DNA from: an uncultured Pirellulaceae bacterium
GTDB taxonomy: Bacteria; Planctomycetota; Planctomycetia; Pirellulales; Pirellulaceae
Length of the DNA stretch: 32,280 nucleotides
Reading direction: 5' to 3'
Assembly: GCA_938091115.1 (NCBI GenBank)
Contig: CALKNI010000019.1
Location: forward strand, 1 to 32,280
Below, in pieces: positions 12,426 to 14,500 of this stretch; position 1 is the first letter of the stretch, and each line of letters starts with the position of its first letter. A program made the position numbers and the translations under genes. The notes under the pieces are model-generated. The model was given only the letters and a program-made list of their open reading frames with translations. It ran no database searches and was not told the origin of the DNA.

Positions 12426-13013
12426 ATGGCCTATATCGAACAAGTTTCAATTGAGAACGCGACTGGAAAAACTGCACGGCTATACCAATCGGCGGTTGAG
12501 CGAGCAGGCGACGTTGCCAATATTATTCGGGTGATGAGCCAGGATGCCGCAACTGCGAACGCTTCGATGAATCTCTACGTCTCCATCATGAAGACCGACA
12601 ATCACCTTTCTGGAGCGCAACGTGAGATGTTGGCAACTGTTGTCAGTAACGCTAATGATTGTTTTTACTGAACACTGTTTCATGCCAGAGATTTCGGTCT
12701 GGAGTCTGGAAATAAAGAGTTGGCGGAGTTGTTGGTTTTTGATTATCGCAATTGTGGTTTCGACGAGTTGGATGCAGCGCTTTGCGAGTATGCAGTTGAG
12801 CTGACCTGCCGGCCAGCGGAGATGTCGCAGGCTAACATTGACCGATTGCGAGACGTGGGTTTTGCTGACGATCAAATTACGATCGCGACTCAGGTGATTT
12901 CGTACTTTAATTACATCAACCGGATCGCGGATGGTCTCGGGGTGGATTTGGAAGACTGGATGACGATCTCGGAGGAGTCGTGGAAATTGGAGAAGCCGAA
13001 ATGGCGGTCGTGA
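12426..13013 (+). CDS. AhpD-like peroxidase-related selenoprotein (in-frame TGA = Sec82)
   Basis: 195 residues if TGA 12669-12671 is read as selenocysteine. Codons 1-81 and 83-195 are in the same frame and together make one complete peroxidase-related protein of the AhpD/carboxymuconolactone-decarboxylase superfamily. The active site reads E67...C79-F-Y-U82-T-L-F-H86. Spacing equals the Glu-Cys-x-x-Cys-xxx-His site of AhpD (Glu to first Cys 12 residues), so TGA replaces the second CXXC cysteine. The downstream half (LTCRPAEMSQANIDRLRDVG, FNYINRIADGLGV) is typical of the peroxidase-related subfamily and shows no decay. A hairpin at 12685-12709 fits a bacterial SECIS. The ATG has an AAGAG box upstream, and the gene ends at a bidirectional terminator. 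A simple nonsense mutation is the alternative; the exact catalytic position and hairpin argue against it. Confidence 0.8.
12685..12709 (+). promoter_or_regulatory. Candidate bacterial SECIS element for the AhpD-like gene
   Basis: Two alternative folds lie just after the TGA (12669-12671). Fold A: CCAGA (12685-12689) pairs with TCTGG (12698-12702), with an 8-base loop starting with G, 18 bases after the TGA. Fold B: GATTTC (12690-12695) pairs with GGAGTC (12701-12706) including two G-U pairs, extended by CCA/TGG outside a GA bulge. Fold B presents a GGUCU loop 24 bases after the TGA. Both distances fit bacterial SECIS elements. Stem stability is modest. Confidence 0.6.
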
Positions 13014-13132: not shown

Positions 13133-14500
13133 TTACGGATTAGGGTTAACGTCATCCTCTGGCGCTTCGCCGGGATCTTCGTGATTCGTAAGATCCACTT
13201 CGTGGCCCATTTCTGCTAACAATTCAGTAAGTGCTTCGTCCATTTTTGGGCCTCGCGCGTTTTTGTACCGAATTTTTCCTTCCGCGTCGATGATGTAGAT
13301 GGTTGGCCATCCGGTAACCCCCCAGCGAGTCGAAATGGGACCGCCGGTTCCTTGAGGACCGTTCCAGAAACTACGCCATGAGATATTTTTCTTCTTGGTT
13401 GTTTCCCGGATTTTTTCCAGGTCACGATCACTGTTGACACCAATAATTGCGAATGGTTTGTCAGCAAGTGTTTTTACGAGCGACCGCTCGTGTGGGTACA
13501 TTGCCCGGCACGGTGGTCACCAATCGCCCCAAAAGTCGAGCACGACAACTTTGCCGCGGTAGTCACTCAGCTTAAAGGCGACTCCATCAAGGTCTTCGCC
13601 TTCGATATCGGGAGCAATTTTGCCAATGCTTAGATACTTCATTTGGAAGAGAGCATTGTCGGCAGCTTCTTTAAACGTCTTGCCGCGAGTCATCGGACTC
13701 GTCAAATCTCCGTAGTTGGCTATCAGGGATTCGTATAGTTTTTCTGCTCGTGTTTCGTCTTTTACGGTCTTGGCCAGAGCCATCGTTGCCGAAGCCCTGA
13801 CAGCCTCGTGCGGCGACTCTTCGATCAATTGCTCAAGCTTTGCATCTGCATTTTTAACGGGCATTCGGCCTTGTGCGAGAATTCCGCAAAGGTTGGCCAT
13901 TTTTTCGTTGTCGATGTACTTTTCAAACAACGTATCCATTGCTTTGGTCCCGGCATCCGAGCCCGCCATGTTCATGGTGATCCACATGATGGCGTCGAAG
14001 TTAGCAGGGTCATTTTCATTGGCAGAGACAACTGCGTCTAGATCAGCTCCACATTGTTTCTGCAGCTTGGGAAGGTTCGCGTAATAATAATCGCGTCCTT
14101 CGTTACCGGGCATTTTTCTCGCTTCAGTCATCAGGCTTCTGCTGGCCTTTGTGTAATCGGCGATGATTGTTTTAATTTGTTCAGCCGGAGTAGCATCGGT
14201 AACTTCAGGTTCAGTTTCTTCCTGCTTTGGTTCAGGCTTAGCTTCTTCCTGTTTTGGTTCAGGCTTAGTTTCTTCCTGTTTGGGTTCAGGCTTAGCTTCT
14301 TCCTGTTTGGGTTCAGGCTTAGCTTCTTCCTTGGGTGCTTCCGGTTTCTTCTCTTCCGGAGCAGGTGTTGCTTCCGGGGATTCTACTTTCGACGCGACCT
14401 GAGCCGGCGTGGAATTCGGGGTTTGGGATGTCTCGTCGCCCGGATTACTGCAAGCAGTGATCAGGAGGCAGCCGAGAACTAATAGCCATCTCATTTGCAT
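13133..14500 (-). CDS. TlpA-like thioredoxin-fold selenolipoprotein (in-frame TGA = Sec328)
   Basis: 455 residues if the TGA at 13519-13517 (minus strand) is read as selenocysteine. AGAGGA lies six bases before the ATG at 14500. The N-terminus is a lipoprotein signal with lipobox LITAC (Cys17), so it is probably membrane-anchored and faces the periplasm. Residues 61-96 are four KPEPKQEE(A/T) repeats, a flexible spacer. Residues about 105-290 are an alpha-helical module. Residues about 290-435 are a redoxin/TlpA domain: KVVVLDFWGDW, then U328-P-P-C331, RAMYPHERSLV, GVNSD and the cis-proline loop GWPT (P399). The TGA takes the place of the nucleophilic first Cys of WCxxC, and homology continues undamaged in frame. 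A SECIS-like hairpin with a GGUC tetraloop follows. The role is probably thiol-disulfide or peroxide chemistry at the envelope. Confidence 0.82.
13465..13503 (-). promoter_or_regulatory. Candidate bacterial SECIS element for the thioredoxin-fold gene
   Basis: On the minus strand the upper stem ACGAGC (13491-13486) pairs perfectly with GCTCGT (13481-13476) around the tetraloop GGTC (13485-13482). The loop begins 31 bases after the TGA. A lower helix, CAATGT (13503-13498) with ACA/TTG (13471-13465, one bulged C), lies below an internal loop. GGUC is, from memory, the tetraloop bound by SelB in E. coli fdhF. No bulged U is present in the upper stem, unlike fdhF. Confidence 0.68.
14216..14323 (-). 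repeat. Four tandem 27-bp repeats encoding KPEPKQEE(A/T)
   Basis: Units at 14216-14242, 14243-14269, 14270-14296 and 14297-14323 are near identical, with a few substitutions. They are in frame within the selenolipoprotein gene and form a charged, Pro-rich spacer between the lipid anchor and the folded domains. Copy number is likely variable between strains. Confidence 0.85.

Follow-up and report, generated by a model that had tools for sequence, protein, structure and literature searches.

Does an in-frame UGA codon at the position of the nucleophilic cysteine of a thioredoxin-fold protein end the gene or specify selenocysteine (Sec), and, in the latter case, what would the protein do? The question is raised by a minus-strand gene in a 32,280-nucleotide stretch of DNA (the window, contig C19) from an uncultured member of the Pirellulaceae, the host assembly being a 4.19-Mb MAG which is 88% complete. 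The original prediction was of a UPPC selenoenzyme, lipid-anchored and carrying a spacer and an extra helical module. The best overall explanation, to which we assign a probability of about 0.85, is that the gene encodes a Sec-Pro-Pro-Cys thioredoxin-fold thiol-disulfide oxidoreductase produced by read-through at UGA 328. The features of the locus are collected in Table 1.

Table 1. Features of the UPPC gene and its convergent neighbour (window coordinates)
Feature	Position	Strand	Remarks
AhpD-related gene, TGA at 12669..12671 (C-F-Y-U)	12426..13013	plus	convergent neighbour of the UPPC gene
Selenoprotein gene (very probable)	13133..14500	minus	455 codons + TAA; UGA at codon 328 read as Sec
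UGA codon, putative Sec328, first residue of UPPC motif	13517..13519	minus	
Resolving Cys331 codon (TGC)	13508..13510	minus	
GWPT, cis-Pro loop	13301..13312	minus	Pro399 invariant among 58 aligned
Putative SECIS hairpin ACGAGC-GGUC-GCUCGU	13476..13491	minus	31 nt from UGA to apical loop
Predicted signal peptide with lipobox, residues 1-17 (..LLITA C17)	14450..14500	minus	sequence motif; helix 2-16 in model
Pro/Glu/Lys spacer (PKQEEAKPE units)	14204..14331	minus	tandem repeat, 27-bp period, 4.7 copies
Helical module, residues 105-289, nine helices	13634..14188	minus	AlphaFold2
TlpA/ResA-like thioredoxin domain, residues 293-434	13199..13624	minus	Pfam, Foldseek

Gene organization

From 14500 to 13133 the minus strand carries one continuous frame with a single in-frame TGA (13519..13517), which takes the place of the first residue of WCxxC and gives W-U-P-P-C. 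The frame reads YRGKVVVLDFWGDW-TGA-PPCRAMYPHERSLV, with DFWGDW directly before U, GWPT further on, and NPNP as its last residues. Both the TGA at the first cysteine of the motif and the normal continuation to the cis-Pro loop and C-terminus had been noted at the outset; the former is confirmed by the frame and by conservation of the TGA in orthologs, the latter by the run of the frame through to the TAA. ORF calling with translation table 11 yields two ORFs instead, 13517..14500 (327 aa) and 13133..13501 (122 aa). The TGA-interrupted frame is more than a chance occurrence, and the gene is very probably a selenoprotein gene.

Conservation of the UGA codon

Homologs were sought in 60 genomes, including this one, at E values up to 1e-20. 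Matches to the UPPC protein were found in 46 of them, and in 28 genomes a match contains an in-frame TGA, two of these (G001 and G044) being counted without locating the TGA within the locus. At this cut-off the present genome possesses four UxxC copies (contigs C19, C32, C80 and C207) and one Cys copy (G000:C158), the latter being one of the WCPPC homologs with which an alignment had been proposed. In eight orthologous loci (L019-L026, this genome's included; 85 to 100% identity) the frame is open and the TGA lies at the same codon. Distinct fetched homologs have TGA at the aligned site in 167 cases, TGC or TGT in 31, and another codon in 3; an in-frame UGA where homologs have Cys is a criterion for a bacterial selenoprotein. 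The second active-site residue (331) is Cys in 165 of the 167 TGA members and is itself encoded by TGA in the other two.

In five ortholog pairs omega is 0.08-0.13 over the 180 codons leading up to the TGA and 0.08-0.14 downstream, and by this estimate purifying selection is equally strong on the two sides. The downstream domain, the loss of which in homologs would have spoken against a selenoprotein, is kept in the orthologs.

A TGA copy of the family is found in 17 of 31 relatives with tRNA-Sec and in 0 of 16 without (genomes ≥90% complete; Fisher p ~1e-4, shared ancestry uncorrected, and G015 entered as lacking a TGA copy). A UxxU member of the family, L210, was found in G015 afterwards. 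A tree was built, with the active-site columns kept, from 130 of the 198 rows; it included every one of the 31 Cys rows and all TGA rows outside L077-L193, and from L077-L193 itself 45 TGA rows were drawn at random. It requires seven Sec/Cys changes, two of them forced by starred branches, with gain and loss indistinguishable.

Selenocysteine machinery

The MAG contains selB (363.8 bits in a profile search, cut-off 242.25), selC, that is tRNA-Sec with anticodon TCA (67.4 bits), and selD in the form of a 740-aa Ndh-SelD fusion. The presence of selB and selC removes one of the objections named with the original prediction. No selA was found in this 88% complete MAG, where the best match scored 20.9 bits against a cut-off of 267.9. 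Since selA is present in 22 of 27 genus relatives, its absence here is likely a gap in the assembly; among the 60 genomes searched 41 have a match above cut-off. No tRNA-Sec was found in G004, G021, G023 and G027 (MAGs 71 to 88% complete), yet TGA copies occur there.

In the product of selD (L016 301..2523, plus strand), which has CxxC, an NADH-dehydrogenase-like domain is joined to SelD; both points agree with the marine Ndh-SelD of PMC2398784, in the available text of which this fusion form is described.

Probable SECIS element

The bacterial SECIS model of PMC13188914 specifies a loop of 3-9 nt, a stem of 4-16 bp, a G in the first two loop positions, a distance of 16-37 nt from the UGA and a minimum free energy of at most -7.5 kcal/mol. 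The hairpin of the UPPC gene (13491..13476), with a 6-bp stem, a GGUC loop, 31-nt spacing and a core of -8.7 kcal/mol, lies within all these bounds and falls inside the interval where a SECIS had been foreseen (13519-13460, minus). It forms part of the minimum-energy fold of the first 48 nt past the UGA (-12.0). The 62-nt fold starting at the UGA is unexceptional (z -1.31), and the hairpin is absent from its minimum-energy structure; the putative recoding signal is the local hairpin rather than the longer fold. A search of the window at Rfam gathering thresholds gave no match.

Of 151 distinct sequences, 133 carry exactly this 16-mer and 143 have GGUC as the loop; among the exceptions two inner pairs are broken in L091, and L100 has a different stem. 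The synonymous codons at +9 to +13 are locked (CAC 144/147, GAG 148/149, CGG 146/146, TCG 143/143, CTC 148/150) although all four synonyms occur at the neighbouring codons for Ala (+5), Pro (+8) and Val (+14), so that recent common descent is no explanation. By comparison CGG, TCG and CTC make up 16, 22 and 15% of their synonymous families in twelve long ORFs of the window. Base pairing alone, the amino acids given, would force most of this locking, and CGG contributes, with its third base, a loop G of the type required by the SECIS model. Being frozen, the hairpin displays little covariation of its own and draws its support from the locked synonymous sites.

The constraint seems to extend to the protein. 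Residue +12 is Ser in 158 of 167 TGA members versus 3 of 31 Cys members, where Glu leads with 15. Judged by the Sec/Cys contrast at these residues, the hairpin fixes codons +9 to +13 in such a way that Arg-Ser-Leu appears to be dictated by the RNA and not by the protein. One copy, L253 (G026:C166, near 1242, minus), has a TGC-encoded WCRPC together with a complete hairpin CACGAGCGGTCGCTCGT and is nested among TGA copies; most simply, Sec would have been replaced by Cys here recently, the SECIS surviving as a relic.

The 12-mer GAGCGGWCGCTC occurs four times in this genome (reversed control, once), always in UxxC genes of the UPPC family. By itself it is a weak probe, the reversed control being equally frequent in several of 30 genomes; when 30 + 8 loci containing it were read on both strands, UGA frames were found only in UPPC-family genes, two UxxU genes included. 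The UxxU genes, L210 (near 1468, plus) and L223 (near 1542, minus), have two UGAs each (UGPU and ULTU) and one shared hairpin with the same 12-mer, and have lost the Trp preceding the active site.

When 294 genomes of the phylum, this one among them, were sampled, an exact 45-nt cassette was present in 46 genomes and in 32 of 210 genera, with a reversed control of 0 throughout. None of the 20 other sampled genomes from the same family, order or class has it, and its distribution in the 294-genome sample is patchy. A pattern scan of GTDB returned at least 117 stretches with at least 122 sites, which by their record titles only are mostly from Planctomycetota and Verrucomicrobiota, with a few from elsewhere. 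Since the AhpD-related neighbour and the main type of DsbD gene (both described below) have other hairpins, the sequence looks bound to the UPPC family rather than a genome-wide standard; some relatives' DsbD genes have a related GAGCGG-type stem.

Protein architecture

The C-terminal domain matches PF00578 (73.2 bits, the top Pfam family) and PF13905 (59.2 bits), and its top Foldseek matches are ResA-, CcmG- and TlpA-like, ResA-like chains giving a TM-score of ~0.85 on the target. It combines the thioredoxin fold with a cis-Pro and a WCxxC-type site in which Sec replaces the first Cys, as defines a TlpA/ResA-like oxidoreductase. None of the 25 NCBIfam matches listed for the read-through protein reaches its cut-off; ResA scores 67.9 (cut-off 170), DsbE 51.9 (123.15) and TlpA 50.4 (230).

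AlphaFold2, supplied with 58 aligned family members, gave a mean pLDDT of 85.6, with a helix at residues 2-16 and the thioredoxin domain beginning at ~293. Residues 19 to ~100 have low pLDDT, and the Pro/Glu/Lys spacer is predicted to be disordered. The spacer, anticipated from the start, proved to be a 27-bp tandem repeat, the unit number of which is not constant even among close orthologs: the six sequences counted, with this one among them, have from four to seven units of the PKQEE type. The extra helical module was likewise recovered as a confident model: pLDDT is ≥93 in every ten-residue block but one, and 95.6 when the module is modelled alone. Neither Pfam nor the sequences and folds of the PDB yielded a confident relative of it (E up to 0.001); there are weak TPR/HEAT-like matches.

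The motif for the lipoprotein anchor of the original prediction is present in this protein, in which the lipobox LLITAC (ITAC ending at residue 17) conforms to the lipoprotein pattern, and is not general in the family: a lipobox-like motif occurs in just 6 of 58 aligned members (5 by a stricter motif), and the putative anchor is therefore a subgroup trait. On the strength of this motif the protein is probably secreted and lipid-anchored, and we infer a periplasm-facing selenoenzyme.

A DsbD-family gene with its own UGA

There is one DsbD_TM match in the genome (L264 883..3468, minus; G000:C147). The ORF ends ...VDYTADW, and the frame goes on through a TGA as UPTCKVNEKRVF..., for 862 aa; the TGA lies at the nucleophile of the gamma domain (WUPTC), which we take to be the domain cd02953. 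The protein scores above cut-off for PF02683 (DsbD_TM, 57.6 bits), PF11412 (DsbD_N, 30.8) and PF13899 (thioredoxin, 51.2), DsbD_N being N-terminal and the thioredoxin domain C-terminal, which is the architecture of DsbD; the NCBIfam DsbD model gave 114 against a cut-off of 330.

Among 29 readable loci (this genome counted once) the site is TGA in 17 and Cys in 12, and 11 further loci, picked for a listed TGA, all have it in this position. Changes among relatives in the main hairpin, CGAAAAG-CGUGU-CUUUUCG, keep its pairing. All 13 sequences counted (of 17, two repeats and two of another type being excluded) have standard pairs at six of the seven positions, and 9 of the 13 also at the outermost; in the two nearest Cys orthologs three of seven are standard. 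The 46-nt folds past the UGA miss -7.5 kcal/mol in several loci (e.g. -5.5 in L267, L269, L270 and L281).

Of 40 genomes with tRNA-Sec, 20 have both TGA genes, 3 the DsbD gene only, 4 the UPPC family only and 13 neither (p ~7e-5, ancestry uncorrected; G015 entered as DsbD only, though with a UxxU copy). Within the genus the corresponding figures for tRNA-Sec genomes are 19, 1, 0 and 4. With a TGA at the gamma-domain nucleophile of the sole DsbD-family transporter found, a selenium-based reducing relay between DsbD and the UPPC protein is plausible.

Proposed mechanism and alternatives

That the gene is a selenoprotein gene is close to certain: SelB with Sec-tRNA would decode UGA 328 because of the GGUC-loop hairpin 31 nt downstream, inside the coding region. 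In the protein the spacer and the nine-helix module probably present the thioredoxin domain to partners or substrates. Sec328 would attack a substrate disulfide or oxidised sulfur, Cys331 would resolve the selenenylsulfide, and the DsbD-family electron transporter, itself TGA-interrupted, would re-reduce the protein. Genome content, the mechanism of the family and the co-occurrence of the two genes suggest these last steps, for which the chances are about even.

The strongest alternative retains the selenoprotein and makes it a thiol-dependent peroxidase, or an oxidant/isomerase, in place of a DsbD-fed disulfide reductase. The AhpC-TSA family (PF00578) does head the Pfam matches, and the gene conserved next door is AhpD-related with CxxU; UxxC, however, is the thioredoxin-type arrangement, the Sec peroxiredoxins catalogued in the available text of PMC13188914 being TxxU, and the best fold matches together with the DsbD-type donor in the genome also favour the reductase. 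We consider a peroxidase or isomerase unlikely. Still less probable is that the UGA doubles as a selenium switch, the 327-residue lipoprotein with only the helical module being made on purpose at low selenium. The part upstream of the UGA is a complete, confidently modelled module, but there is no sign of selection for a short form, and Cys paralogs in the genus manage without a switch.

Reading of the UGA as Trp or Cys, through a changed code or plain read-through, can be given very little credence. The frame would be open under such codes, and the four incomplete MAGs with a TGA copy and no tRNA-Sec match fit a Sec-independent reading. Against this, tRNA-Sec, SelB and SelD are present in the MAG, window ORFs end in TGA (e.g. 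the 383-aa 6972..8123), the 34 aligned sequences in which the site is not TGA comprise 31 with Cys and none with Trp, and no TGA copy was found in the 16 relatives (≥90% complete) without a tRNA-Sec match; it was set aside on the machinery, the TGA stops and the Cys homologs. A pseudogene, a sequencing error or an ordinary stop, which would yield either two shortened proteins or a 327-residue protein accompanied by one started internally at Met334, accords with the two ORFs of mechanical calling but was set aside as virtually without probability, being contradicted by the TGA at the same codon in orthologous loci of other assemblies and in 167 distinct aligned sequences and by purifying selection past it in five pairs, while the internal ORF would be without both active-site residues.

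A broader picture may be sketched, tentatively and at somewhat less than even odds. Many planctomycetes would possess a selenium reducing relay across the membrane, in which a Sec-DsbD hub feeds several Sec thioredoxin-fold exoproteins. The hairpin these share would have stayed nearly unchanged in sequence across many of the phylum's lineages, as well as in MAGs that bear the label Verrucomicrobiota, with the RNA signal instead of protein function fixing Arg-Ser-Leu in the helix after the active site.

Relationship to known proteins

ResA, TlpA and CcmG (DsbE), which in classical systems are reduced by DsbD/CcdA-type proteins, share the fold and the active-site position of the UPPC protein; theirs is Cys, not Sec, and we know of none with the nine-helix module.

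Several selenoproteins come close to it, as far as the available texts describe them. The catalogued UxxC/UxxU Prx-like thiol:disulfide oxidoreductases (PF00578; PMC13188914, PMC9312934) belong to the same Pfam family and share UxxC, and UxxU also occurs here (L210 and L223). In this comparison, by domain and motif only, the UPPC protein adds the helical module, repeat spacer and lipobox. A thiol-disulfide isomerase-like selenoprotein from the Sargasso Sea (cd02966/PF13905, UxxC), listed as four metagenomic sequences in a 2005 table (PMC1088965) whose available text names neither an organism nor an architecture or common hairpin, is similar in PF13905, UxxC and marine origin, and could be of the same clade as the UPPC family. 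The UGC-containing TlpA disulfide reductase family selenoprotein (cd02966; PMC13188914) also has a TlpA-like domain with active-site Sec, its motif being UGC versus UxxC here; the UPPC protein scores 30.2 with NCBIfam WAxxUGC_long (cut-off 300).

For the DsbD-family gene the counterpart is the DsbD-like 'thiol disulfide interchange protein' Trx-like 2 (cd02953, UxxC; PMC2398784), with which it shares DsbD_TM and a UxxC thioredoxin domain, again within the text available. TsoB (NF045694, UxxxxU) differs in being a rhodanese/DsbD fusion with two Sec, and our protein scores 144.9 bits against its cut-off of 805. Selenoproteins have been described in two planctomycetes (PMC4807772, available text). 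UxxC thiol oxidoreductase selenoproteins are, then, already known; the architecture, the frozen SECIS and the DsbD pairing look new, no report of them having been found in a literature in which subscription journals were thinly covered.

Because the gene is split by table-11 calling and no listed NCBIfam model matches at cut-off, databases likely conceal or truncate a group of redox exoproteins that planctomycetes possess in multiple copies. A hairpin whose sequence is frozen across a family, and in many lineages, stands out as an exception and makes SelB recognition directly testable. The natural UxxC, UxxU, CxxC and Cys-with-relic-SECIS forms among relatives provide a ready-made set of variants with which to ask why selenium is employed.

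Neighbouring genes

The convergent AhpD-related neighbour is probably a second selenoprotein gene. It shares CFYUT with the AhpD-related selenoproteins of NF041238, scoring below that cut-off (60.9 vs 175) and above that of TIGR01926 (133.6 vs 81.8), and its hairpin is different from that of the UPPC gene. An AhpD-related gene with a TGA adjoins the UPPC ortholog in nine genomes, this one included, reading CYY-TGA in G024; in G021 the neighbour locus ends before the TGA site.

Behind the Cys paralogs in L049 and L063 (FWGHWCPPC) the next gene has, in both cases, much the same HQWRGPDA..GVA(S/T) stretch, which from its resemblance we presume may be a PQQ-like beta-propeller.
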